Part shown: positions 1 through 12,063 of the stretch, one piece after another
How the letters are laid out: each line of letters starts with the position of its first letter
How positions within the stretch are numbered: the first letter of the stretch is position 1
IMG/VR virus record: IMGVR_UViG_3300027881_000101
Span: 1 to 21,417 of that record
DNA: 21,417 nt
Source of the DNA: a virus
Reading direction: 5' to 3' (one strand)
The notes under the pieces: model-generated
Databases searched by the model: none
Told to the model about the DNA's origin: nothing
What the model saw: only the letters and a program-made list of their open reading frames with translations
Program-made: the position numbers and the translations under genes

Positions 1-2545
1 CCAACGGGCTGGGGAATCGGCATCGGAACTTTCCGACGTCTACACCTCTATGGGTCGCGACTCCACCGAGATGATCCGGGCGGCAGGAGCGGCTTCAAAG
101 ATCGGGATTGCCGGGGAAACCAATCTCCTTCGATTCACGGCTGCCTCCCGAGACTTCGGATTCGTCACCAAGACCAGCGCTGATCAAGCCTCTGCGGCCC
201 TTTCTGAACTCAGCATTGCCCTCGGGTACGAGACTCCGGAGCAGGTTGAGCGCCTTGCTTCGGGGATGACCACACTCTCCCGAAAGACGAATGTATCCGC
301 CGCAGAGCTGACCAACCTCTTGCAGCAGGTCGGCCCTCTTTCCAACGCCATCGGTGTTTCCGAGTCGGCGGTAATGGGCCTCTCTACTTCTTTGGCTCAA
401 ACTGGATTGAGTGCCGGACAGACCATTGGTCCGATTTCCAAACTCATGCAGATGATGCAGTACTCGCAACTCAGCGGGCATGCTCTCGGTCAGACCATGG
501 GGTTGACCGGCGAGGCGTTCGATAAGTTTGCGGAGGCCACCCCTGATAAACAGGTCGAGATGTTCATGTCCCAGCTCGGCAAGATGGACAAGATTCCTGC
601 GGAGGCCACCTTGGAGGGGCTTGGGATTGCGTCCGGGTTTGCGGCGACGAAGATGTGGGAGGCGGCTAAGAAATCGGAGAACCTCACGACCTATATCGGG
701 TGGGCCAATGAAGCGATGAAGGATAACACGGCTCTCGGCAACGAGTCCGCGAAGATCCAGAAGACCTTGACCTATCAACTCAGTGAGCTGGGGAAGCAGC
801 TGAAGGCGATCTACCAGATGGCCGGTAAGGCGCTCATGCCTGTGCTGTCCTTCATGGTCCAGGCCCTCCGGGGTTTTCTCTACGTCGTCATGGTGATTCC
901 GAAGCCGATTCTGGCGGTTGTGGCTGCCCTATCAGCCTTGGGCGCAGCGCTCCTCACAGGGGCGTGGCTCGCCAAGACCAAGATGGTCGCCGGGACCATG
1001 AGCCTTGTGGCGGCACTCTGGAAGGAATACGCCGCTGTGGGCGGCCTCACCGGGCTCTACAAGGGTCTGACGAGCGCGAGGATTGTTGCGGCTGCCTCTG
1101 CGAGAGCGGGGAAGATGGGAGTACCCCTTAGGACCGGGATGCTCACGGGCGCGTTCGCGAAGGGGGCCCCGAAAGCGGTGGGTGCAGTAGGAGCCGGGGC
1201 CGGTACGACAGGCATGATGGCGGCGCTTGGGACTGCCGCGGCTGCGCTCGGTGTTTCGATTGCAGCTCTTCTTGGGATCATTCTCGCCGTGATTGCGGCG
1301 ATCGTGATCATGGGAATCATGATTTACAAGGGCGTGAAGATGTTTAGGGAAGGGGAGGGATCGGCCAAGGCGTTCGGGGCTGCTCTTCTGCTCCTGACCG
1401 GTCCCATCGGAGCCTTCGTCTTAGGCATGATGCTCCTGGCGAAGCCGATTAAACGGTTCAAGGATGAGGTGGTTAATGCGCTGACCCCTCTCTATGAAAT
1501 GTTGGTGAAATTTGAGCCCGTCCTCTATGCGATCGGGGCTGTTCTCCTCCTTACTGTTTTGCCCGCCCTTGCTCCAATCGCTGCTATGTTTGCCGTGATT
1601 TATCTCTTGATGCCTCTTGTGGTTGGGATGATGGAGGCGTTTGCTGAAGTTTTGATGTGGGCTCTTGAGCCGTTCCTTCCTCTCGCGGCAGAATTGGGTG
1701 CTCTCTTCAAATGGATTGGAGAAGCGCTCGGATCCACCAGTGATGAAGGGTGGGGTGTTTGGGAGGTCATGCAGGGACTTGGAAAGGTCCTGGGGTACAT
1801 CGTGTTCGGCCCCCTCGCCGCCCTCATCAAGGGCATTGCACTGATCGGCGAATTGATCGTGATGCTTGTGTCCGATATTGGGAGCGTCGGATACGCGCTT
1901 GCATGGCCTTTCATTTGGATGTGGGAGAAAGCCAACGAGGCCTTCCAATGGGTCGCGGACAAGTTCATGTGGCTCGTGAACAAAATCATGTCTCCGATCG
2001 AGTGGATCTATAACCTCTGGAACACGACGATGATGAAAATTAACAGCGCGATCCGATGGATCATCGGCCCGTTGAAGTCGGTCGCGGATGCATTTTGGAA
2101 GATCTACACAGCGGTGAGTGGGGTTTCGAGTGCTCTCTTCGGATCTTCTCCGTGGCATATCAAGGAGTCCATGGAGGGGGAGGTCATCCCTGCCTTGAAG
2201 GAGACGGGGAAGGGATTTGAGGGTATCACCGATTCGGCCATGGGTGTCCACCAGGTTGCAAAGGCAAAGGGCGGCGTGGTGCCCAAGCCGAAGGAACTCA
2301 GCATGGCCGAGCTTGAGGCTTCCAAGATTGGGGCCGCTGGAACAGCTGTTACTTCTGGATTGTCTGCTGTGGGAGCTGCGGGGCCTGCCGAAGGGCCTGC
2401 CGAGATCAAGGTTTCCATTCCCGTCACGCTCACTCTCGATGGAATGGTGATCGGCAAGACGATGGTCGAGCAGCTAATCAACCTTCGCGAAAGGCACATG
2501 AATCCGCCGGGGTTCCCCATGCGTGGGGTTGAACCGGCATTCTGA
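1..2545 (+). CDS. Tail tape measure protein (5' partial)
   Basis: The reading frame is open from base 2, so the gene begins upstream and the ATG at 50 is probably internal. The tape measure sets tail length and leaves the tail ahead of the DNA on infection (family knowledge). The first ~250 visible residues are Ala/Ser/Gly/Leu-rich and helical, matching the TP901-type tape measure domain. Hydrophobic segments follow at about 890-1000, 1214-1335, 1377-1440 and 1519-1635, which may insert into the host membrane. Near 2135-2160 is the motif FGSSPWHI, close to the 'SSP-x-H/x-I' signature seen near the C-terminus of many tape measures. No lysozyme or peptidase motif is visible in this part and I see no cysteine. 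Two stop codons stand in frame (TGA 2543, TAG 2546), the second inside a palindrome. The visible ~848 codons are only a lower limit on length. Confidence 0.9.
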   Translation, partial: QRAGESASELSDVYTSMGRDSTEMIRAAGAASKIGIAGETNLLRFTAASRDFGFVTKTSADQASAALSELSIALGYETPEQVERLASGMTTLSRKTNVSAAELTNLLQQVGPLSNAIGVSESAVMGLSTSLAQTGLSAGQTIGPISKLMQMMQYSQLSGHALGQTMGLTGEAFDKFAEATPDKQVEMFMSQLGKMDKIPAEATLEGLGIASGFAATKMWEAAKKSENLTTYIGWANEAMKDNTALGNESAKIQKTLTYQLSELGKQLKAIYQMAGKALMPVLSFMVQALRGFLYVVMVIPKPILAVVAALSALGAALLTGAWLAKTKMVAGTMSLVAALWKEYAAVGGLTGLYKGLTSARIVAAASARAGKMGVPLRTGMLTGAFAKGAPKAVGAVGAGAGTTGMMAALGTAAAALGVSIAALLGIILAVIAAIVIMGIMIYKGVKMFREGEGSAKAFGAALLLLTGPIGAFVLGMMLLAKPIKRFKDEVVNALTPLYEMLVKFEPVLYAIGAVLLLTVLPALAPIAAMFAVIYLLMPLVVGMMEAFAEVLMWALEPFLPLAAELGALFKWIGEALGSTSDEGWGVWEVMQGLGKVLGYIVFGPLAALIKGIALIGELIVMLVSDIGSVGYALAWPFIWMWEKANEAFQWVADKFMWLVNKIMSPIEWIYNLWNTTMMKINSAIRWIIGPLKSVADAFWKIYTAVSGVSSALFGSSPWHIKESMEGEVIPALKETGKGFEGITDSAMGVHQVAKAKGGVVPKPKELSMAELEASKIGAAGTAVTSGLSAVGAAGPAEGPAEIKVSIPVTLTLDGMVIGKTMVEQLINLRERHMNPPGFPMRGVEPAF

Positions 2546-2547
2546 TA

Positions 2548-2564
2548 GCGCAAACGGTTTGCGC
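2548..2564. repeat. 17-bp palindrome, copy 1
   Basis: Perfect inverted repeat GCGCAAAC-g-GTTTGCGC, starting two bases after the tape measure stop codon and ending 11 bases before the next start. A second copy with the same arms and a different centre base lies at 19666-19682. With the flanking TA and GG, 20 of 21 bases agree between copies. A one-base centre suits a dimeric DNA-binding protein better than a hairpin, although a 6-bp stem with a 5-base loop is possible. No T-run follows, so it is not a standard intrinsic terminator. Confidence 0.75.
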
Positions 2565-2575
2565 GGGAGTTGATC

Positions 2576-3163
2576 ATGGGTAAGGACTACACGGGTGAAT
2601 TTTGGAGCATTGGAAGGCTCCGTGGGCGTTATCAGCCCGAGGACTTCACCGAGACGCAGAACCTCAAGCTGAAGGATCTCATCACTTTCGGTGCAGTCTC
2701 CCGCGTCATGTTCGCAGGATGGGATCCTCGCGAAGTCACGCTCTCCTTCATGGTTGACTCCGTTCATAGAGGTGACACGCCGGATCAGGTTGATACCCCA
2801 AATTCGAGGTATCTCAATCGGGGAGCGGGAACTGGTGCCAGGCAAGTGGATTGCCCTCTCAACGATCCTGAGGAAGTTTGGAGGTATATCCAGAGCATTC
2901 AACGTCCTTTCCCTCGTCCGACAATCATAAGGCCGGTTAACGTTTACATTCCAGGGTGGGGGGATCACGGGAAAGATGAGGTTAAGAACGCCTATATCAC
3001 GAATGCATCTATTAAGCGGACCCATATTACACCGAAAGGAACACAATATCATCGCATCACTGGGGCGAGCAGAGCCGTTCGGGCAATCATCACCGTCACA
3101 ATGAAAGAGGCCGTCTTCTTTACGACGGAGGACGCTAAGAAGAATAAGGTTCCTACGTTTTGA
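2576..3163 (+). CDS. Baseplate/tube-end protein (gp53- or CIS-tube-like)
   Basis: A 195-residue protein encoded directly after the tape measure, where myoviruses usually place the protein joining tail tube and baseplate hub. I read the start at ATG 2576, six bases after GGGAG; a TTG six bases upstream is possible but sits almost on that ribosome site. The N-terminal part (FWSIGRLRGRY, then a beta-rich stretch ending VMFAGWDPREVTLSFMV) resembles the N-terminal beta domain of contractile-injection-system tube/LysM proteins. A turn-rich middle and a C-terminal beta region with AIITVTMKEA follow. No catalytic motif is seen. The next gene supplies the LysM-like domain that is often fused to this domain in other systems, which supports the assignment. 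Family call by position and fold impression only. Confidence 0.6.
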   Translation: MGKDYTGEFWSIGRLRGRYQPEDFTETQNLKLKDLITFGAVSRVMFAGWDPREVTLSFMVDSVHRGDTPDQVDTPNSRYLNRGAGTGARQVDCPLNDPEEVWRYIQSIQRPFPRPTIIRPVNVYIPGWGDHGKDEVKNAYITNASIKRTHITPKGTQYHRITGASRAVRAIITVTMKEAVFFTTEDAKKNKVPTF

Positions 3164-3170
3164 GGTTGGG

Positions 3171-3476
3171 ATGATTTTCAGGGGATCGAGATACGAGAAC
3201 TGCCGATACACGGGGATCATCGGTAGGGACGGCAAGGTGCGGAAGTTCATCCATGGGAGGGATCCGCTCAGGGCCGAGGATATGATCGAGCCCATCGTCA
3301 TTCATTCTTTTCAGCGAGGAGAGGTGATCGATGAGATTGCGTGGAGGGCGGTAGAAAAGTCGAGGCTTTGGTGGGTGATCGCGGACGTCAGTAATGTGAT
3401 GTTCCCTCTGGAGATTGAACCCGGCGCTGACCTTGTAGTTCCGATGACTGAACTCTCTGCGAGGGTGGATTACTGA
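3171..3476 (+). CDS. LysM-like baseplate protein (gpX/gp53 type)
   Basis: A 101-residue protein. Its second half reads DEIAWRAVEKSRLWWVIADV, followed by NVMFPLEIEPGADLVVP. This is the usual pattern of phage LysM-like tail proteins: a helix with D-x-I-A-x-R, then LWWVIA-x-x-N, then P-L-x-L-x-P-G-x-x-L-x-x-P. In myoviruses such proteins (P2 gpX, T4 gp53 relatives) help the tube-end and hub proteins attach, and probably do not need to bind peptidoglycan. ATG follows GAGGTTGG at close spacing. The stop codon shares its last base with the start of the hub gene, so translation is probably coupled. Confidence 0.75.
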   Translation: MIFRGSRYENCRYTGIIGRDGKVRKFIHGRDPLRAEDMIEPIVIHSFQRGEVIDEIAWRAVEKSRLWWVIADVSNVMFPLEIEPGADLVVPMTELSARVDY

Positions 3477-4741
3477 TGGGACGTGGTATTCCTTGTTTTC
3501 CGACGATAGGTCTTGGGAGAGGGCTCCCTGTTCCGATTGTCATTCCTGACGTCGGGATCCTTGGAAAGATCCCTGTCCCTGGATCGACGCTTCTTTCCTC
3601 CACCTCCAAAACTATCACAAAGGCGGTCCGTGCCTTTCCAGATTTCTTGATCCTCGGTTTTAAGGCTGTTGATGGAGTAGTGAAATCGGTCTTGCTCGAT
3701 GAGGTTGCGGGGTTCGGCGTGTCCGTGGCTAAGATCGTCTTGAATAACGTCAATGGGCGTCTCAGCAGGACGATTCACGCGAAGGAGCAATCATCGTTCC
3801 GGGTTTCACTCGGATACCAAACTCCTGGGCAGGCCCAGCACGGGACGTACATCGTTCAGAGACCGAAGTACCGATTCACCGCGGGTGAGCAGCCGATGGC
3901 CGTCGAGATCATAGGGTACGGTGAAGCGGTCAAGTTGGGAGCTACGGAGCGTCGAGAGACCTACCGGAAGATGTCTGATGCGGACATTGCACAGCTGATT
4001 GCGGGCCGGAACGGCATGACGGCGGACGTTGATACGACGACGCCGGTCTACGACCAGGTCCTTCAGGCGAACGAGAGCGATTGGAAGTTCCTGGAGCGCC
4101 GAGCGAAACTCTACGGCTTCTTGTTGTACGTCGATAATGGCACCCTCCACTTCCACAGGGTGCGTCCTCGGGAAAGCGGGATCACCGTGGCGGCGGATCT
4201 GGTGGATGGAGATCTCCAGGAGTTCGTCGTCGGTTCGAGAACCTTCATGCGTGGGGCTCAGCTCACCATGACGCAAATGGATCCCATCACGAAGGACGAG
4301 ATCAATATCATCTCGACCGAAGCCCCCGATCCCGTTCAGTCGAGATTGAATTTCAAAAACTGGGTTCAACTTGTGAATATCCCGGGAGTGGGGCAGCCGA
4401 AGCGTTTTGTCGTTGGGGAGGGTCACAAACAGTCGACGCCGGAACTCACGAACATGGTGAACGAGATGGCGAAGTCTACGAGGTACGTCATCGCCGGGAG
4501 CGGCGTCATCCATGGGATCGAGACCCTTCGGGCCAACGACCTGATCACAGTCAACGGTGTCGGAAGATCCAGCGGGAAGTACTACGTCACGAGAGCCATT
4601 CATGAATTGGACGCGGGAGAGGGCTCCATGGGAGGGGCATATCGTGTCCGGTTCGAGGTTGTAAGGTCCGGTGCTGGCGAGAACACGGATCAAGGGGTAA
4701 CCACCGTTCAGCCGCAGAGCGCCGGGACCGTATCTTTGTAG
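3476..4741 (+). CDS. Baseplate hub protein, gpD/gp27-like
   Basis: A 421-residue protein of the late-control-D/gp27 hub family, which forms the ring carrying the central spike. The diagnostic stretch is around residues 166-226: MSDADIAQLIAGRNG, then QANESDWKFLERRA, then KLYGFLLYVDNGTLHF. The helix with N-E-S-D-W-x-F-L followed by a beta hairpin is typical of the family's mid domain. Residues 83-160 form the first beta domain. The first ~60 residues are an odd Gly/Pro/Ile-rich lead (IPCFPTIGLGRGLPVPIVIP) that I do not associate with the family core. ATG overlaps the previous stop by one base, with GAGGGTGG upstream. Gene order LysM-like, hub, spike agrees with Mu/P2-type phages apart from two inserted small genes. 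Confidence 0.88.
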   Translation: MGRGIPCFPTIGLGRGLPVPIVIPDVGILGKIPVPGSTLLSSTSKTITKAVRAFPDFLILGFKAVDGVVKSVLLDEVAGFGVSVAKIVLNNVNGRLSRTIHAKEQSSFRVSLGYQTPGQAQHGTYIVQRPKYRFTAGEQPMAVEIIGYGEAVKLGATERRETYRKMSDADIAQLIAGRNGMTADVDTTTPVYDQVLQANESDWKFLERRAKLYGFLLYVDNGTLHFHRVRPRESGITVAADLVDGDLQEFVVGSRTFMRGAQLTMTQMDPITKDEINIISTEAPDPVQSRLNFKNWVQLVNIPGVGQPKRFVVGEGHKQSTPELTNMVNEMAKSTRYVIAGSGVIHGIETLRANDLITVNGVGRSSGKYYVTRAIHELDAGEGSMGGAYRVRFEVVRSGAGENTDQGVTTVQPQSAGTVSL

Positions 4742-4745
4742 GTGA

Positions 4746-5033
4746 ATGATGGGGTGTTGCGGGAAGAAGAGAAAGTCGGGTGTGCCCTCTCAATCTTCGA
4801 AGGTAACCCTGCCGAGGGATGCATCGAGGGCACCATCTCTGTCTCGTCCGAGAAGATTGAGGTCCGCCGTCTCCGTGGGGAAGCGTGTCCCCGATAAAGA
4901 TGAGCCTTTCGTCGTGGAGATGGACAAGGTATGCGGGGTGTGCGGAACCAAGCTGCAGGCGAAGATGAGGTGGAGCAAGCGGCTCCGCCGACGCTACCCC
5001 GTCTCCTACTGTCCGACGTGTACCAAGGGTTAG
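4746..5033 (+). CDS. Small basic zinc-ribbon protein
   Basis: A 95-residue, Arg/Lys-rich protein with a C-terminal four-cysteine site: C63-G-V-C66 and C89-P-T-C92, 22 residues apart. This spacing suits a zinc ribbon. Residues 1-50 are basic and look disordered, starting MMGCCGKKRK with two further adjacent cysteines. Zinc ribbons bind nucleic acid or protein, and the partner is not shown. It lies five bases after the hub gene and five before a membrane protein gene, in a place where Mu/P2-type phages go straight from hub to spike. It may be an accessory gene, a regulator or a small virion part. Function unknown; the metal site is an inference from cysteine spacing. Confidence 0.7.
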   Translation: MMGCCGKKRKSGVPSQSSKVTLPRDASRAPSLSRPRRLRSAVSVGKRVPDKDEPFVVEMDKVCGVCGTKLQAKMRWSKRLRRRYPVSYCPTCTKG

Positions 5034-5037
5034 GTCA

Positions 5038-5436
5038 ATGTTTGTTGTCAAGATTATCGTGGCTGTGATCCTCGTCGAGGCCATCGTGGAGATCGCGACG
5101 ACCGCTGAGATCTTCGAAGGGTTCCGTGGGTGGTTCGATGGCGAGGGCGATGAGCCGACCAAGCTCGGAACGTTCGCCCGTTGCGGGTACTGCCAATCCG
5201 TGTGGGCTGCATGGATGGTTGCATACCTCTTGAACCTTGAGGGAGTGTTTACGGGGCTGGCATGGGGCGAGCCTCTGGTCTGGGGCCTCTTGATTCACCG
5301 GGCATCGAACATCTGGCACGAAACCGTCTCACGGCACCTCGCAAGGGCACCTCTCGCGCTGTTCCTGCGGTCCTGGAGGCGAGAAGAGAGGCCACCGCGA
5401 CCCGAGAAGGGGGGAGACGGTGATGGAGCCGTCTGA
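5038..5436 (+). CDS. Membrane protein with CxYC-W motif (DUF1360-like)
   Basis: A 132-residue protein with a strongly hydrophobic N-terminus (FVVKIIVAVILVEAIVEIA), two further hydrophobic stretches around residues 55-72 and 76-90, and a basic C-terminus rich in Arg. Residues ARCGYCQSVWAAW resemble the cysteine-pair-plus-tryptophan motif (C-x-Y-C-x-x-x-W) of DUF1360-type membrane proteins, a family of unknown function. It follows the zinc-ribbon gene by four bases, and its last 14 bases overlap the spike gene, so it is part of the same transcript. Possible roles are host membrane modification, superinfection exclusion or helping tail insertion; the sequence does not choose between them. The family match is from memory of the motif, not from a search. 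Confidence 0.62.
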   Translation: MFVVKIIVAVILVEAIVEIATTAEIFEGFRGWFDGEGDEPTKLGTFARCGYCQSVWAAWMVAYLLNLEGVFTGLAWGEPLVWGLLIHRASNIWHETVSRHLARAPLALFLRSWRREERPPRPEKGGDGDGAV

Positions 5437-6508
5437 CGCCATTTCTGGGCTCCACGGGGAGAAGCGGTACTACGGAACCTACCGGGGATCCGTGGTGGAT
5501 AATAATGATCCCCTGCGGATCGGAAGGGTGAAGTGCCGGGTTCCCGAGGTCCTGGGCATGACGATGATGACCGATTGGGCCTCGTTCAAGGGCGGCCAGT
5601 ACGGGGGAGGCGCAGACAGTGGCGTCTTCGCCCCTCCGGATTTACTCTCGGCTATCTACGTGGAGTTCGAGAGTGGGGACGTCAACCGGCCCTTGTACTC
5701 CGGGACCTGGTGGGGGCAGAGGACCGGGCAGCCTCCGGAGCCACCGGCCCTCTCCCGTGCGGACGGCGATACATGCTGGATGACGGATCCGAGCACGATG
5801 GCCCCGAAGGGGACAGACAAGTTCAAGAGCCTTGATGACCAGAACCAATGCCAGCCGCAGTCGCCTCTCCATGTGAACGGCGGACCGATCTACCCAAACA
5901 ACAAGGTCTTCAAGACGAAGAACAATGGGATCACGATAGAGGTGGACGATACCCCCGGGAAGGGGCGGATCCACATCTGGCATGGTCCTTCGAAGTCGTG
6001 GGTGGAGATCGATGCTCAGGGAGAGCTTTCGATCCGGATGGCCGGGAAGTCCTATCGGCTGATTGATATGGACGACCGGCACCACGTGAAGATGAACCGG
6101 CACTCGATGGTCGAGCTATCTGAGACGGTTCGGATCGGGACCAACCGCCTCACGGCAGTGGGGGCCAACGAGAGGCGCGAGGTCGGAGGTACGAGAGATA
6201 CGTTTGTGACGGGGCCCGAGCAACGGGTGAATGACGGCGGCCTCAAGGATTGGGTTACGGGTGAGAGGGTGGACGTTATCCAGGGGAATTACACCCTCTG
6301 GGTCATGGGGAACTTCAAGGTCAACGTCGTGGGGAATTACGAGAGGACGGCTGTGAGCATCATCGACAAGGGAGCCACGATCGATCACAAGTTGGGGACC
6401 GTTACGGGATCTCCTCCTACGCCTCCGACTCCGCCGACGCCGCCGACCCCGGCTACATGTCCTCCTGTCCCTACTGCGTCCTGTCCGCCGCTGCCACCCG
6501 CACCATAG
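5423..6508 (+). CDS. Central spike protein, gp5/VgrG-type OB fold
   Basis: A 361-residue spike. Residues ~15-100 form an OB-fold: YYGTYRGSVVDNNDPLRIGR, then VKCRVPEVLG, then a strand ending AIYVEFESGDVNRPLYSGTW. These are hallmarks of the gp5 OB/gpV family. Residues ~165-325 hold short beta repeats (KNNGITIEVDDTPGKGRIHI, then ELSIRMAGKSY, VRIGTNRLTAVG, NYTLWVMGNFKVNVVGNYER) expected to form a trimeric beta-helix needle. No T4-gp5-like lysozyme domain is present. The last ~33 residues are an unusual Pro/Thr tail (PPTPPTPPTPPTP) with two Cys. I choose ATG 5423, six bases after GGAG, over the GTG three bases earlier. The C-terminus points toward the PAAR tip encoded two genes on. Confidence 0.88.
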   Translation: MEPSDAISGLHGEKRYYGTYRGSVVDNNDPLRIGRVKCRVPEVLGMTMMTDWASFKGGQYGGGADSGVFAPPDLLSAIYVEFESGDVNRPLYSGTWWGQRTGQPPEPPALSRADGDTCWMTDPSTMAPKGTDKFKSLDDQNQCQPQSPLHVNGGPIYPNNKVFKTKNNGITIEVDDTPGKGRIHIWHGPSKSWVEIDAQGELSIRMAGKSYRLIDMDDRHHVKMNRHSMVELSETVRIGTNRLTAVGANERREVGGTRDTFVTGPEQRVNDGGLKDWVTGERVDVIQGNYTLWVMGNFKVNVVGNYERTAVSIIDKGATIDHKLGTVTGSPPTPPTPPTPPTPATCPPVPTASCPPLPPAP

Positions 6509-6516
6509 GAGAATAG

Positions 6517-7038
6517 ATGTCTACGCCGATCGAGAACGAGGAAGTTTGGAAGTCTATCGTGGCTGATCCGGAGGTGCGTGCGTGTCTTCGGAGGGTGGCG
6601 ATGTCGGTTCTCTCTGAAATCAGTCCTGAGTCGATCGAGATTTATAGGTCTCAGGTGGAGACTTATCACGGACTCGTTCCCAAGTACAAGGCGAGGATCG
6701 ATGCGATCGATTCCGAGATCGGCTGTCTCGACGTTTTGGTAGAGAAGCTTCCTTTGGAGGGGGAGGGTGGAGCCTTCAGGGGAATGCTGGTCCAGAAAAA
6801 GGCTGCCTTGATGGTCGAGAAAGAGGAGACGATCAAGAAGGCCGAGGAAGTTCCAGGGCAGGCAGAACCGGCGGAGAGACTTCTTCGGACAGTTGAAATC
6901 CAAGTGGCGAATGCCAGTTTCTTGATGCGTGTTATTGAGGATGCGGAAGATGCCGAAGGTGGGATACATCGGGTCGATGACGAGCCACGGGGCCCTGGTG
7001 ATCACGGGCCCGCTCCCGACTCCATACGTGAAGTGTGA
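6517..7038 (+). CDS. Coiled-coil protein upstream of PAAR (paralogue A)
   Basis: A 173-residue, mostly helical protein. Residues 35-112 look like coiled coil, including ARIDAIDSEI followed by LDVLVEKL. The start is well set: AGGAGAATAG then ATG, eight bases after the spike stop. The final ~29 codons overlap the PAAR gene in another frame and have a different, Gly/Pro/Asp-rich character, so the functional part probably ends near residue 145. The protein shares a pattern with the 157-residue protein at 7249-7722 and the two are probably paralogues. A tail assembly or PAAR/spike chaperone role is plausible from position only. Function unknown. Confidence 0.7.
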   Translation: MSTPIENEEVWKSIVADPEVRACLRRVAMSVLSEISPESIEIYRSQVETYHGLVPKYKARIDAIDSEIGCLDVLVEKLPLEGEGGAFRGMLVQKKAALMVEKEETIKKAEEVPGQAEPAERLLRTVEIQVANASFLMRVIEDAEDAEGGIHRVDDEPRGPGDHGPAPDSIREV

Positions 7039-7186
7039 TTGTGGTCCCATTGGGAAGGTCGGGGATATGGTGGCCGCGCATTTCCATGGCTCGGTTCCCA
7101 TCCCTCCGAATCCTTTTCTGAATGGATCGCTGGTGTCCAAGGTCGAGGGACTGGGCATGCTCCGGGTCGGCGACACAGCTACGTGA
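6950..7186 (+). CDS. PAAR-repeat spike-tip protein
   Basis: A 78-residue protein with the PAAR pattern: VGYIGSMTSHGALVITG at the N-terminus, GPIGKVGDMVAAHFHGSVPI in the middle, and the closing MLRVGDTAT. PAAR proteins fold into a sharp cone that caps the spike of myoviruses and type VI secretion systems, usually with a bound metal. Here H13, C29/C31 and H44/H46 are candidate ligands. I choose ATG 6950, nine bases after GAGG; the reading frame extends upstream (ATG 6941, GTG 6929), but family proteins begin close to the V-G-x-x-x-x-x-x-H-G motif. The first 89 bases overlap the upstream coiled-coil gene. Confidence 0.85.
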   Translation: MPKVGYIGSMTSHGALVITGPLPTPYVKCDCGPIGKVGDMVAAHFHGSVPIPPNPFLNGSLVSKVEGLGMLRVGDTAT

Positions 7187-7202
7187 GGGGCGCAAATCAT
7201 AC

Positions 7203-7219
7203 CGGGTCCGTGTGACCCG
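7203..7219 (+). other. Short stem-loop between PAAR and coiled-coil genes
   Basis: CGGGTC-cgtgt-GACCCG, a perfect 6-bp stem with a 5-base loop, in the 62-base gap after the PAAR gene. It is not followed by a T-run, so it is not a standard terminator. It could protect the mRNA end or mark an RNA processing site. Confidence 0.4.
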
Positions 7220-7237
7220 AATACATCATCAGATTAG

Positions 7238-7247
7238 GGAGGCCTCC
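7238..7247 (+). promoter_or_regulatory. Palindromic ribosome binding site
   Basis: GGAGGCCTCC is a 10-base perfect palindrome whose left half is the ribosome binding site for the ATG at 7249 (six bases between GGAGG and ATG). The right half equals the anti-Shine-Dalgarno sequence. The ten bases cannot fold tightly on themselves, but the CCTCC could pair with another GGAGG in the transcript. May be chance. Confidence 0.4.
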
Positions 7248-7248
7248 A

Positions 7249-7722
7249 ATGGCCGGGATTTACGAGTTCTTCGAGGGGTTGAGTGACACGCAGTGGGACG
7301 GGATCGTGCGGGTGATGCAGGATCTTCAAGACAGCGCGTCTGGAGAGAGGATCGAGAGCCTCCGGGCCTTCCTTGCTTCCCTTACGAGGGAGATCGACAA
7401 CATCAACCGAAGGCGAGATGCCATCGGGCAGAAGATCGAGAACATTGACGTTCTACTGAGGACGCTCGACGAGTACGTCCGGAAGCACAAAGACAACGTG
7501 GAGACGGTTCTCTTCCGGTCGGTCCTGCTCCTTTGGAAAAGCCAGCTTCGATCAGAGGTCGCCTCTTTGCGTCCTTCCGAGAAGCTGGATAAAAAGTACG
7601 ATACAGAGAGGAAACGGGAGCTTCTGGTGCAGGTCGCCTCTCTTGTTTCTTCGATCAGTTCCAAGATGAAAGACGCCCAGGCCGAGAGGTCGGACGTCCA
7701 GGTTGAGGCCAAGAGGACGTGA
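7249..7722 (+). CDS. Coiled-coil protein downstream of PAAR (paralogue B)
   Basis: A 157-residue, charged, helical protein with no hydrophobic segment and no cysteine. Residues 40-80 and 95-150 look like coiled coil. RRDAIGQKI followed by IDVLLRTL (55-73) lines up with residues 60-78 of the 173-residue protein at 6517 (9 of 19 identical). Further on, FRSVLLLWKSQL (89-100) lines up with FRGMLVQKKAAL (87-98) after an offset of seven residues, one heptad. ATG follows GGGAGG by six bases. Its stop overlaps the GTG start of the gp25-like gene (GTGA), suggesting coupled translation. Position between PAAR and wedge genes suggests a baseplate assembly role; I know no family. Confidence 0.7.
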   Translation: MAGIYEFFEGLSDTQWDGIVRVMQDLQDSASGERIESLRAFLASLTREIDNINRRRDAIGQKIENIDVLLRTLDEYVRKHKDNVETVLFRSVLLLWKSQLRSEVASLRPSEKLDKKYDTERKRELLVQVASLVSSISSKMKDAQAERSDVQVEAKRT

Positions 7723-8159
7723 ACAGAAACGACATCATCGGGCGAGGATGGGCCTTCCCCTTCAGGTTCACGAAGGTAGGGAGGACCGGCAAGCTGGTGG
7801 GAGTCTCCGACGCCTCCTCGCTTGAAAAGATCGCTATGTCCATCCGGCAGATTTTGGGAACAAAAAGGGGAAGCCGGGTGATAGATCGTGACTTCGGGAC
7901 TGACCTCAAGGAGATCCTCTTCGATCCCATCGATGAAGTTTCCGTGGCGAGGGTCCGCTTCACAATTATGGATGCGCTTCAAACCTGGGAAAGGCGTGTT
8001 GATATTTTGGATGTGGATGTGAGCATTGATCGCGTCAAGGAAGGGATCATCGACGTGGAGATTTTTTACAAAGTGATTTCTACCCAGCTCGAAGGGAACC
8101 TGGTCTACCCTCTCTATGTTACTGATGAAATGCAGGTGGTGGGCCAGCTGAACGTGTAG
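7719..8159 (+). CDS. Baseplate wedge protein, gp25/gpW-like
   Basis: A 146-residue protein of the T4 gp25/P2 gpW family, which clamps the wedge ring and starts sheath assembly. Family features: SLEKIAMSIRQILGTKRGSR, then VIDRDFGTDLKEILFDP, then RVRFTIMDALQTWERRVDI and the strand LDVDVSI. The K/R-G-S-R-x-x-D-x-x-F-G core is typical. Such proteins are often mislabelled lysozyme; I see no sign of enzyme activity. The start is GTG, overlapping the previous stop by four bases. The J-like wedge partner follows 10 bases downstream, the usual order. Confidence 0.9.
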   Translation: MNRNDIIGRGWAFPFRFTKVGRTGKLVGVSDASSLEKIAMSIRQILGTKRGSRVIDRDFGTDLKEILFDPIDEVSVARVRFTIMDALQTWERRVDILDVDVSIDRVKEGIIDVEIFYKVISTQLEGNLVYPLYVTDEMQVVGQLNV

Positions 8160-8169
8160 GAGGAGAACC

Positions 8170-9945
8170 TTGGTAACCTATTCAATTTCAAAGGTGAGCA
8201 ACAGGATCCCGCCGATCGACTACACGAGTCGGGACTTCGAGGCTATCGCTCAGGATATGGTCCGGGCCATCCCCTTCATAGCTCCTGAGTGGACGGACCA
8301 CAACCTCTCGGACTTCGGCATCGTCCTCCAGCGTCTCTTGGCCATGGTTGCGGACACGCTCCACTTCTACATCGATCGCAACGCCAACGAGGCTTTCCTT
8401 CCGACGGCCATCACGCGGAGGAGCGTCATCAACCTCCTCCAACTCATCAATTTCCAGCTTAACAGCGCTGCTCCCGCGTCGGTGGATGTCCTCTTTTCCC
8501 TTCAGGATCCGCTTACCGGAGACCTTCTGATTCCTGCCGGGACAGAGCTTCAGACTTCCTCGGATGCGACCGATGGCCCTATCTACTTCGAGACCTCGCA
8601 GGACGCGATCATCCCGGCGGCAACCTTGGAGGTTTCGGCTCCCGCTGTAGAGGGCCGTACGGTCAGCGAGACCATCGGAGTCAGCATTGGGGTGCCGAGA
8701 CAGCAGTTCGATCTCACCCAATCACCCGTGATTGATGGGAGTATCGAGAACTATATCGACGAGGGGGCGGGGCCCGCGCTGTGGAGCGAGGTGGAATCCT
8801 TCGCTTACTCCGGTCCGGATGACAAGGTGTTCACCACCATTCGGGACGAGGAGGACAAGGTCACGTGCCTCTTCGGGGATAACGCCCAGGGGAAGATTCC
8901 CGACAACGGATCCGAGATCGATTCGGAGTACCGGATCGGTGGCGGGGAGGTGGGCAACGTCCCGGAGAACACGATCAAGGTGATCAACGACACCTTAACT
9001 TTCAATGGTGTGGGCGTGAACCTGGCAGTGACGAATCCTCTCGCGGCAAGCGGGGGCGAGGATGCCATGACCATCGAAGAGGCCAAGGTGCTCGGGCCGC
9101 AGAGCCTGTTGGCTCTGAACAGGGCCGTGACGCCGTTGGACTTCAAGACGCTGGCCGAAGCCTTCCCTGGAATCGCGAAGGCGAACGTGGAGGTGGGGTC
9201 GGTTCCCCAGGATGTGACCACGGGGTGCTGCTGCCTCGTGAGGCTCACCATCGCCCCGACAGGTGGAGGTACGCCCTCCACCCAATTGAAGGCCGATCTT
9301 CTGGAGTACCTCAATGCGAGGAAGATGATCGGGACCTGTATAGAGATCGTGGATCCGACGTACGGTCCCGTGGACGGTGTCGGCACGATTCACATGGGGT
9401 CGAATTTCTCCATGGAGCAGGGAGCCCTCGACGTCGAGGACTCGCTCAACGCCTTCTTCGATCTGGGGAGTGAGTACGTCGACTTCGGGCAGCCGATCTA
9501 TCTGTCCGACTTCTATCACATGATCGAGTCCATCCCCGGGGTGGATCACGTGGACCTGACGAAGTTGACCCGGAGGCCGGTGCCGAATTGCGGGCCGTGG
9601 TCCGGGGATTGTGAGATCACCGGATTCGGGATAGGTGATACCTCCAAGAACGAGCAATGGACCGTCACGATGCTTTCGGCCACGGATTTCTCCGTCGTCG
9701 GGAGTGTCAGCGGGATTCAGTCCAACGGGACCGTCAACTCGACGTACACGACCGATGGCGGCGAGCTTTCTTTCACGGTGTCATGCTCTGGACCGACACC
9801 GCCTTCTCCCGGAGACAAGTGCAAGTTCGAGACGAGCCCCAAGATCGACAACGTGCCTATGGGGCCGGTTGAGATTCCTACCAAGGGTGACTTCGTGTTC
9901 GCGTTCGTGGGTGGAGCGAAGCCGCAGAGAGTGTGCCCCGTATGA
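8170..9945 (+). CDS. Baseplate wedge protein, gpJ/gp6-like
   Basis: A 591-residue Baseplate_J family protein, the wedge that forms the baseplate ring with gp25 and gpI-like proteins. Matching features: IDYTSRDFEAIAQDM and WTDHNLSDFGIVLQRLLAMV near the N-terminus; LLIPAGTEL (119-127); FGDNAQGKIP (235-244); YRIGGGEVGNV (254-264); RAVTPLDFKTLA (318-329); and YLSDFYHMIESIPGVDHV (444-461). The start is TTG directly after the very strong AGGAGGAGAA. About 120 residues after position 470 do not belong to the core I know. They contain five of the ten cysteines and a beta-rich stretch (QWTVTMLSATDFSVVGSVSG), probably an extra appendage domain. The internal CCC run at residues 353-355 is unusual. Confidence 0.92.
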   Translation: MVTYSISKVSNRIPPIDYTSRDFEAIAQDMVRAIPFIAPEWTDHNLSDFGIVLQRLLAMVADTLHFYIDRNANEAFLPTAITRRSVINLLQLINFQLNSAAPASVDVLFSLQDPLTGDLLIPAGTELQTSSDATDGPIYFETSQDAIIPAATLEVSAPAVEGRTVSETIGVSIGVPRQQFDLTQSPVIDGSIENYIDEGAGPALWSEVESFAYSGPDDKVFTTIRDEEDKVTCLFGDNAQGKIPDNGSEIDSEYRIGGGEVGNVPENTIKVINDTLTFNGVGVNLAVTNPLAASGGEDAMTIEEAKVLGPQSLLALNRAVTPLDFKTLAEAFPGIAKANVEVGSVPQDVTTGCCCLVRLTIAPTGGGTPSTQLKADLLEYLNARKMIGTCIEIVDPTYGPVDGVGTIHMGSNFSMEQGALDVEDSLNAFFDLGSEYVDFGQPIYLSDFYHMIESIPGVDHVDLTKLTRRPVPNCGPWSGDCEITGFGIGDTSKNEQWTVTMLSATDFSVVGSVSGIQSNGTVNSTYTTDGGELSFTVSCSGPTPPSPGDKCKFETSPKIDNVPMGPVEIPTKGDFVFAFVGGAKPQRVCPV

Positions 9946-10160
9946 GTGACAGCGCGAGACGCAAATGCGTGAAGGAGCAGATGGGCTGGCGGTTGAACAT
10001 GGTCGAGACCAACGCCAGAGCCATCGCCAGTCATTTCGACATCTTCAAGATCGAGGGTGAGGAGGCCGCGAATCTCCGAAAGGGGCTTGATAAGATCGTC
10101 GAGACGGTGAGAGCAAGATACAAGGAAGCCGTCAAGGGCGGCGAGCAAGCAGGAGACTAA
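9942..10160 (+). CDS. Small helical protein after gpJ
   Basis: A 72-residue, charged, helical protein (SARRKCVKEQMGWRLNMVET, then LRKGLDKIVETVRARYKEAV) with one cysteine. ATG 9942 overlaps the J-like stop as ATGA and no good ribosome site is visible, so translation is probably coupled to the J-like gene. A GTG nine bases upstream is possible. It sits between the J-like wedge gene and the tailspike gene. It could be a small connector or chaperone; no family recognised. Confidence 0.6.
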   Translation: MSDSARRKCVKEQMGWRLNMVETNARAIASHFDIFKIEGEEAANLRKGLDKIVETVRARYKEAVKGGEQAGD

Positions 10161-10162
10161 TA

Positions 10163-11773
10163 ATGGCGTTCCAATACCCATATCCCAAGAATCTCGCGAT
10201 CGACTTCGACACCGATTGGGTGTCCTCTATGTGGGACCAGTCGGAGAATCAGCACGAGGCGGTGGCGCAACTGGTTCACAACATGAAGGCGCAGGTGACC
10301 GTATTCATAGATCCGAGCGGTGATGGGGATTACGAAACGATCCAGGAGGCCTTCGACGACGGTAAATCCTTCCTCGTTCTCAAACCGGGAGTGGATCACG
10401 TGGGGGATGTGACTCCGCCGCAGACGAGGTCTTACTACATTGCGCCCTTTGGGGACCAGTCGCTCATCGGGTCCGATTGGAACTGGTGGACGGGGTGGCC
10501 CGGTGCCGACTATCGGGAGTCCACGAAGATCACGGGGAACATCCTTCTCCCGAGCGCACAGATCGAACCCCTGCGTCGGTCCTTCGTCCTTTCCAACGTG
10601 GACATCCGGGGCGACTTCCGTGGGCAGGACAACTGGAACGCTCGCTTCTTCAAGTGTGGCCTTTCCGGTGAGATGTGGCAGGACAACGACGTTACGGCCA
10701 CCTTGGACGGGAAGGGATGCCAGTTCACGTTTGACAAGTGCTTCTCGGTTGTGAATCCGGCGACGAGCGATACCGTGCGATGGAGGCAAACCGGTGTCTA
10801 CCTCGACATGGGTATGGGGGCGAACATTTACATGAGGGGGTGCGACTTCTCTTGGTTTGGGAATCACCTCGTCATGATGACGAAGCCCGTGTTCGAGCTT
10901 GCCGTCGACGACTCCTATCTGGATGTCCGGGACACCAAATTCTTCTTTTGGCTCCCCAATCCTTCACCTGACACGCTGAAGTTCATCGAAGTGCCATACC
11001 CGATCGACAATCCGCAGATTGGGATGTTCTTCAAGAACGTCCTTGTTGAGTTCAATGTTGGTCCGGTCGGAGGTGTCCACCTTCTTGATGGGAGTGGTGG
11101 CGAGCAGATCATCGGGAGTAACTTCCAGGTCAATTATGAGAATGTCCTTCCTCCCTTCCGGCTGGAAGGTGGGGGTTTTACCTCTTACGACCATAAGGGG
11201 ATCGACTTCTTCGGAGGTCCGATCTATCCGCCAAATACGACGGGCTCCGCCATCTACCCGGTGTTCAGTGATATGGACTATGCGGGAGGGACCGGATGGC
11301 TCAACGTTCCGGGAGAGGGCAACGATCTCAGCAGGACGTCTTATCCCGCTGGCCGTTGGACCATCCAGAGCGCCATGGGTGGAGTTCATCTGGTAATGGG
11401 AAACCTCTTCTGCGCCCCCGTTGCCGTCAACTTCGGGGCTGGAGGTGCGACGTTCCCTCTTGGACAGGTTCTCGGGGATGACGACATCCTCGTGGGTCTC
11501 GCCTTGAGGCCTTCCGACCCTGTCACGTATTCAGCAGGGGTGGTCAATGTCGGGATCGGGATACCTCTTGATGTCGATAAACATTTGCTGACCCCGATGT
11601 TGTTCGCTACGAGCGAGCATGTGGAGACCCTCTTTGACCATAACCTTCTTGGGGCCGTCGACGATTTCTGGATCTCCACCTGTGACGCTGTTGGGGCCCC
11701 TATCGGTCAGTTCGACGGCGGCGAGATGATGGTTCTTATCTTCTTCCTCAGGCGTGTTGGGATGTACTTGTAA
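10163..11773 (+). CDS. Tailspike/appendage with beta-helix start motif
   Basis: A 536-residue protein. Residues 50-76 read DPSGDGDYETIQEAFDDG followed by SFLVLKPG, the classic opening of pectin-lyase-like right-handed beta helices (D-x-S-G-D-G-D-Y-x-T-I-Q-x-A). Repeated short beta segments follow up to about residue 350 (VLSNVDIRGDF, CQFTFDKCFS, NIYMRGCDFSWFG, SYLDVRDTKFFF), as expected for helix rungs. The last ~170 residues look like a separate beta-rich domain (VGLALRPSDPVTYSAGVVN). Such spikes bind and sometimes cleave surface polysaccharide; I cannot point to catalytic residues. The first ~45 residues probably attach to the baseplate. ATG follows AGGAGA. Location between the J-like and gpI-like genes is consistent with a baseplate-bound spike. 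Confidence 0.72.
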   Translation: MAFQYPYPKNLAIDFDTDWVSSMWDQSENQHEAVAQLVHNMKAQVTVFIDPSGDGDYETIQEAFDDGKSFLVLKPGVDHVGDVTPPQTRSYYIAPFGDQSLIGSDWNWWTGWPGADYRESTKITGNILLPSAQIEPLRRSFVLSNVDIRGDFRGQDNWNARFFKCGLSGEMWQDNDVTATLDGKGCQFTFDKCFSVVNPATSDTVRWRQTGVYLDMGMGANIYMRGCDFSWFGNHLVMMTKPVFELAVDDSYLDVRDTKFFFWLPNPSPDTLKFIEVPYPIDNPQIGMFFKNVLVEFNVGPVGGVHLLDGSGGEQIIGSNFQVNYENVLPPFRLEGGGFTSYDHKGIDFFGGPIYPPNTTGSAIYPVFSDMDYAGGTGWLNVPGEGNDLSRTSYPAGRWTIQSAMGGVHLVMGNLFCAPVAVNFGAGGATFPLGQVLGDDDILVGLALRPSDPVTYSAGVVNVGIGIPLDVDKHLLTPMLFATSEHVETLFDHNLLGAVDDFWISTCDAVGAPIGQFDGGEMMVLIFFLRRVGMYL

Positions 11774-12063
11774 TGCCTACACTCAACCAATCAAAGGTAG
11801 TGCCCGAAAACAACGTGAACATGCGTAGGGCGATGACCCCGGAAGAGGTGTCCGCCCTCGACGTAGCAATCGCTGCTGACGGTCAAGACCTGATCGACTT
11901 CCTCAATACCCTGCATGATACTGCGAGGTCTGAGCTTGCGGCGAAGCGTGCGGAGAGGTCCCGTGAAAGGGATCCTGCTGCGAGGAAGGTTCTCCACGAG
12001 GAGGCCCGTGCTATCATCCGCAAAAGGGTAGGAGCGCAGGCGTTCCTCAAGGCGATGGAATAG
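11773..12063 (+). CDS. Small helical protein after tailspike
   Basis: A 96-residue helical protein: a mobile N-terminus, MTPEEVSALDVAIAADGQDL, then a very basic/acidic helix (ARSELAAKRAERSRERDPAA) ending RVGAQAFLKAME. The ATG uses the last base of the upstream stop codon (TAATG), so translation is probably coupled to the spike. No family recognised. Size and place directly after a spike gene fit a dedicated spike chaperone, but that is inference. Confidence 0.6.
   Translation: MPTLNQSKVVPENNVNMRRAMTPEEVSALDVAIAADGQDLIDFLNTLHDTARSELAAKRAERSRERDPAARKVLHEEARAIIRKRVGAQAFLKAME

Follow-up and report, generated by a model that had tools for sequence, protein, structure and literature searches.

Why would a tail module carry, between two proteins of the tail tip, genes for a small basic protein and a small membrane protein? 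The question is raised by a virus fragment of the IMG/VR collection (IMGVR_UViG_3300027881_000101, 21.4 kilobases (kb); this whole stretch is hereafter called the window), whose contractile-tail module is ordered as tape measure, two small tail proteins, hub, a zinc-ribbon-like protein that we call zr, a predicted membrane protein that we call mp, spike and a gp25-like protein. The original prediction had regarded the zr/mp pair as inserted between a hub and a spike that are usually neighbours in Mu/P2-type phages. Hub-spike adjacency holds for Mu, not for P2 or T4. Here we describe several layers of evidence indicating that the pair is constant in its clade, that mp is, judged from profile matches, a divergent relative of DUF1360/phrog_781, a family without assigned function, and that this family stands beside virion-building genes in four settings, its neighbour changing with the lineage.

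A search with mp returns only contigs that contain mp, and the search with the hub is therefore the fair test of constancy. The hub sequence by itself retrieved 11 contigs, and in 11 of 11 zr and mp directly follow the hub; ten of these extend to the spike, and 3300002053_000153 stops inside mp. Altogether, hub-zr-mp was found in 17 related contigs, which amount to about 10 lineages (five contigs are near-identical, and 3300031772_009028 has only the end of the hub), and the spike is next in 16 of them. The suggestion that the two genes belong together is thus borne out, since they co-occur after the hub in 17 of 17 related contigs. The word "inserted" is not supported, because the hub-zr-mp order is constant, and this constancy within the clade rules out a recent insertion. 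It had also been considered that the pair might be a constant and well-described part of the module: constant it is, well described it is not, both families being of unknown function.

The coordinates first given to the pair were correct and both genes are real, their frames being conserved in about 10 other lineages and evidently under selection. Compared with the window, the ratio of non-synonymous to synonymous substitution rates (dN/dS) is 0.08-0.18 for the hub, 0.13 for the spike (one comparison), 0.16-0.33 for mp and 0.29-0.60 for zr (four comparisons each), several dS values being near saturation; by these ratios, zr and mp are both under purifying selection and zr is the least constrained gene compared. 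In L010 (3949-4253), mp is out of frame through a loss of 52 nucleotides (nt) relative to the near-identical L009, which may be real or an assembly error. The other exceptions within hub-zr-mp-spike are endonuclease genes in L017 and in the L014 lineage, described below.

The pair was found as a unit at another position, as had been anticipated, in one case. In contig 3300035698_029648 (L011/L035), from a contractile phage, zr overlaps mp by 25 nt, the pair standing between the tail sheath (phrog_23, expect value (E) 2.6e-82) and the tail tube (phrog_4542, E 1.7e-25); another tube protein and a member of PF12322 come next. No convincing homologue of the window-clade hub or spike was found in the 15.2 kb searched.

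The gene of mp (5038..5436, forward strand, 132 residues) contains the predicted C-G-Y-C-x-x-x-W motif at residues 49-56 (5182..5205, forward strand; C49-G-Y-C52-Q-S-V-W56). In an alignment of 22 members, where the motif reads C-x-Y-C-x3-W, R30, C49 and C52 are invariant and S54 and W56 nearly so; mp thus possesses the core of DUF1360/phrog_781, namely C-x-x-C-x3-W with a preceding conserved Arg. Alone, the window protein gives weak matches (phrog_781, E 0.02; DUF1360, E 2.2 and 8.7 bits against a cut-off of 21). Its orthologues match better: with a limit of E 1, phrog_781 was hit by 10 of 10 (best E 4.2e-7) and DUF1360 by 6 of 10 (best E 4.8e-4), and a profile comparison (hhalign) of mp with 15 actinophage members reached 96.5% and E 8.8e-10 over 61 columns. 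A further motif, H-R-x-S-N in the third segment (residues 87-91; 5296..5310, forward strand), has its H-R in 14 of 14 aligned members that are not linked to a portal, and the H-R is confined to such members. Portal-linked members mostly carry R-x2-R in the first segment, where most other members have E-x3-E. Together with the distribution of the H-R, this could be accounted for by ion pairing from one segment to another.

The description of mp as a three-segment membrane protein stands in part. Three membrane segments are compatible with the alignment; by hydropathy, the window protein has one strong N-terminal segment and one marginal peak, and the structural model (helices 2-33, 42-47, 50-67, 78-101 and 105-117) is poor (mean predicted local distance difference test (pLDDT) 60.7). 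The protein is presumed to lie in the inner membrane. A role as a holin was discarded, the only hit being Phage_holin_4_1 in 1 of 10 members (E 0.12), with holin models among the structure matches all at E above 0.9. None of the 58 matches that the fold search against viral models yielded (limit E 10) reached 0.001, and the sequence-profile search of the PDB gave one unconvincing chain for mp (E 0.0053) and none for the actinophage set. As regards the literature, the full texts searched gave nothing on DUF1360 beyond one paper, on non-tuberculous mycobacteria, no literature was found under the name phrog_781, and the accessible parts of PMC12908700 and PMC3556154 contain nothing on the family.

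In turn, zr is encoded on the forward strand in a frame open from 4746 (95 residues), its likely start being the second ATG (4749..5033), because relatives begin at M-G-C-C-G, or at M-A-C-G-G-C-G in L019 and L021. It was rightly called a basic protein with two C-x2-C pairs: the window protein has 24 Lys plus Arg against 6 Asp plus Glu, and ends in C-x2-C-x22-C-x2-C, whose two pairs, C63-x2-C66 (4932..4943, forward strand) and C89-x2-C92 (5010..5021, forward strand), are invariant in 11 aligned members. What was overlooked is a conserved Cys-rich N-terminus (G-C-C-G, 4752..4763, forward strand), in which G3, C5 and G6 do not vary among the same members; the window protein has six Cys in all. 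R79, L80 and Y84 are unvarying as well. In the predicted model, the first ~60 residues are of low confidence and residues 71-88 form a confident two-strand ribbon (strands 71-77 and 82-88, block pLDDT 88-89). With its paired C-x2-C knuckles carried by a small beta ribbon, zr conforms to a zinc ribbon, and it would bind zinc.

Among the families listed for zr members (25 of 42), the commonest weak match is DZR (PF12773; 9 of 10 members, best E 0.005). No listed family scored at its curated cut-off with the window protein, and PF12322 is absent from the three families listed for it at E up to 10. NCBIfam gave no match for zr or mp. With zr, the fold search against the PDB returned 136 matches within the limit of E 10, not one of which reached 0.001, and the sequence-profile search of the PDB gave no chain.

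The wider mp family was reached through overlapping searches of phage records, which returned 203 records with the mp of L032 (E 1), 585 with Evaa gp8 (E 0.01) and 398 with Zooman gp66 (E 1). Nineteen actinophage records, picked for diversity, were opened; they comprise phages of Gordonia, Mycobacterium, Tsukamurella, Nocardia, Rhodococcus, Arthrobacter, Microbacterium and Streptomyces, and the lake phage DSL-LC01. The portal is the next large gene downstream of the mp relative in 19 of 19, at a distance of at most 50 nt in 16 of them and of 137 nt in NTR1, with one small open reading frame (ORF) between the two in ReqiPine5 and Argie. In TPA2 and NTR1, where that gene is not annotated as portal, it was recognized by its similarity to the annotated portals of Evaa, ABU and Glass (E 4e-132 or better). 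Five actinophage members were confirmed by the phrog_781 profile (E 2.3e-31 or better); the others were recognized by tblastn and alignment, the weakest being Asis (E 0.6) and SilentRX (E 0.02). The 11 upstream genes that were read include none resembling zr.

A different neighbour appears in an uncultivated group of eight contigs (L073-L080, of which L074 and L075 are nearly identical), where in 7 of 8 the major head protein is followed, at a distance of 67-113 nt, by the mp relative. Three of the mp relatives were scanned and matched phrog_781 at E 1.1e-6 to 6.6e-5. The head protein was identified once by profile (phrog_2522, E 3.3e-10) and elsewhere by at least 84% identity. The eighth contig, L073, has its head gene broken into three pieces (1382-4919), and ~3 kb with two further ORFs separate it from the mp relative. 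No zr match was found in this group.

Several candidates were set aside. The tblastn search of cultured phages with the window mp gave 16 records, at E 2 or worse among the matches listed, and that in prophiGD27-1 runs opposite to the annotated genes, as does the match in Ahp1 from the search with the L011 mp (E 2). The match in L002 falls in a GC-rich stretch at the contig end, with no like protein, and L091, reached through zr, shares only a C-x-x-C resemblance, with neither M-G-C-C-G nor a hub or spike match. A scan of bacterial genome contigs gave 30 pattern matches and no relative.

Endonuclease genes are lodged in the structural region of several contigs. In L014 (9559-10926) and the near-identical L015, L016, L018 and L025, a LAGLIDADG gene (PF14528, E 5.5e-8; phrog_4645, E 1.8e-23) interrupts mp just after C-G-Y-C-Q. 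The truncated first part is identical to L006 at 146 of 150 nt, and behind the endonuclease stands a complete chimeric mp, with a divergent 5' half (~69% identity to L006 and L017) and a native 3' half (88% identity to L017). L017 (~9970-11985) has in turn a truncated spike start, a related LAGLIDADG gene (PF14528, E 9.9e-6) and then a spike gene with a new start, and in L078 (5761-7918) a head protein gene is split around a LAGLIDADG gene into overlapping pieces (4-72 and 49-360). The simplest reading of these sequences is that the element would carry a replacement for the gene part that it separates. The replacement copy behind the endonuclease implies that the loss of mp is costly, no more so than that of spike or head protein. 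An HNH endonuclease gene (PF01844, E 6.3e-8) was also seen in the tail region of the 111-kb relative L032 (16596-17372).

We tentatively favour, with rather less than even confidence, the idea that mp is a membrane-anchored assembly factor placing an initiator complex on the inner membrane, and that zr is a clade-specific adaptor. In the proposed mechanism, mp would be a small inner-membrane protein made together with the tail-tip proteins, which would hold the nascent hub, perhaps hub and spike, at the membrane while the tail nucleates; zr, as a soluble and basic adaptor, would join mp to the hub complex through its zinc ribbon and its Cys-rich N-terminus. Elsewhere, the mp family would be paired with a different initiator (the portal, or one beside the head protein) and would do without zr. 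Both the contact between zr and mp and their role in assembly are inferred. In favour of this explanation are the constancy of the pair after the hub, its presence as a unit in L011, the family membership of mp and the purifying selection, as well as the relatives that adjoin the portal (19 of 19) or the head protein (7 of 8) and the mp kept behind the endonuclease. The placement of the mp family beside virion genes suggests a virion assembly anchored to the host membrane, and an assembly-site model accounts for neighbours that differ by lineage yet remain virion genes.

Other considerations weigh against the assembly role. Its support comes from gene position and sequence; the membrane topology of mp is weakly predicted; the opened actinophage records are a non-random sample; and a single molecular partner is unlikely, because the neighbours differ by group. 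The hub/spike and sheath/tube positions could moreover be a matter of accessory-gene hitchhiking. Finally, in the window clade the pair lies ~18 kb away from the portal gene (in G008, portal at 31009-32115 and mp at 50195). In this clade, phrog_781 gave a single match per record, at the hub, in the 9 records searched, and in G008 and G004 no phrog_781-type gene occurs in the 1.1-1.2 kb that precede the portal. Two genes upstream of the portal, window-clade phages have a ~205-residue protein with a hydrophobic stretch (L054, 117-737; L057, 205-822), for which no Pfam match was found in L054.

The other explanations are taken here from the least improbable downwards. It is unlikely, in our judgement, that mp (and zr) is a virion component, carried in the tail tip or neck and delivered to the membrane of the target cell to aid the crossing of DNA. 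The pair does sit between hub and spike, the proteins that first meet the envelope, the N-terminal segment of mp is strongly hydrophobic, and the actinophage relatives adjoin the portal, another DNA gateway; nevertheless, such a role is harder to reconcile with relatives that are found beside a head protein or between sheath and tube, and no cluster B virion proteomics was found in the literature search. We likewise give little credit to superinfection exclusion or late envelope modification, in which mp, seated in the host membrane, would keep related phages from entering, with zr as its modulator. Phage membrane proteins with such an exclusion role are known, mp is a small predicted membrane protein and the pair is once found at another position (L011). 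However, a presence and position fixed in the hub clade (11 of 11), the same direction as the virion genes and a dN/dS of 0.16-0.33 for mp are unlike a patchy accessory gene.

Thiol or metal chemistry is an improbable explanation, although C49 and C52 vary in none of the 22 aligned members: the C-x-Y-C of mp would be a membrane-bound redox or metal site, with zr as soluble partner, acting on the cysteines of virion proteins. The mp of L014 and L017 has C-P-Y-C, the glutaredoxin-type sequence, and an extensive network of disulfides is reported for one phage tail (PMC10811340). Against such chemistry, no oxidoreductase family matched mp among those listed, the PDB profile search gave the single unconvincing chain mentioned above, and the two Cys may serve a structural purpose. 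Least credible of all is a dispensable passenger, an accessory pair settled in structural operons for a benefit unrelated to its neighbours, for which the varying neighbours and the constraint on zr, the lowest among the genes compared, can be cited, and against which stand the constancy within each group and the complete mp kept after the endonuclease insertion.

Returning to the assembly factor, a broader version can be drawn, which we regard as doubtful: DUF1360/phrog_781 would be a general assembly-site family fastening to the inner membrane the complex that nucleates, be it portal, head, tube or hub, and the present lineage would have gained a zinc-ribbon adaptor and used the family for the tail tip, its contractile tails being built on the membrane. 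If so, hundreds of sequenced actinophages would carry an unrecognised morphogenesis factor beside the portal (585 records matched Evaa gp8 within E 0.01), and assembly on the membrane, which is documented for the T4 head, would hold for tails too. The portal rule makes the family directly testable in easily grown mycobacteriophages. If this is wrong, the pair would still be a fixed tail-module component, without a description in the literature searched.

With respect to the surrounding genes, the claim that the pair shares a transcript with hub and spike is plausible from the layout. The hub-zr gap is 7 nt, the zr-mp gap 4 nt and the mp-spike overlap 14 nt, with comparably tight spacing in the eight relatives measured, and no sigma-70-like site was found in 3000-8000, where 1.7 were expected; one weak terminator-like match lies on the forward strand inside mp (5271-5286), both strands of that region giving 6 such matches against 3.7 expected. 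The hub (gpD/gp27-like; 3476..4741, forward strand) matches phrog_52 (E 4.4e-24) and, below the cut-off, Phage_GPD (E 3.1e-6; 27 bits against 30.1), and the spike (gp5/VgrG-like; 5423..6508, or from 5420, forward strand) matches Phage_base_V (E 3.3e-12) and phrog_430 (E 2.6e-29). Farther on lie the gp25-like protein (7719-8159) and a J-like protein named by eye (8170-9945). A gene of 173 residues (6517-7038) overlaps by ~110 nt, in a different frame, that of a PAAR-like protein (6929-7186, 85 residues, named by eye and with no Pfam or PHROG match), and both have counterparts in most relatives. Phage_portal matched in 4 of 6 records, which together with the tail genes indicates their phage nature; the terminase family phrog_2 was found in 0 of 6.

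How does the pair compare with known systems? As a zinc ribbon, zr resembles DZR (PF12773) in its two C-x2-C knuckles and differs in its long, basic and disordered N-terminus with Cys of its own. The actinophage members of DUF1360 (PF07098)/phrog_781 resemble mp in size, order of hydrophobic segments, the C-x-[YW]-C-x-S-x-W core and location in a virion operon; in contrast, the portal-linked ones mostly have R-x2-R where mp has E-x3-E, and they have neither the H-R of the third segment nor a zr. The assembly of the T4 hub needs the small chaperones gp26 and gp51, as stated in the accessible text of PMC3004832. By eye, the PF12322 proteins of L011 and L032 (the family of gp26/gp51) also hold C-x-rich pairs; these two phages encode the PF12322 gene separately from zr, on which ground zr as a PF12322 hub chaperone was rejected. 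In T4, in turn, the portal initiator needs gp40 and is put together on the inner membrane, according to the part of PMC9958956 that is available. The likeness to gp40 is that the window mp is a predicted membrane protein encoded beside initiator genes; its neighbours are hub and spike rather than the portal, whereas its actinophage relatives are adjacent to the portal in all 19 opened records. These T4 precedents, gp40 for the portal and gp26 and gp51 for the hub, lend support to the assembly-site model.
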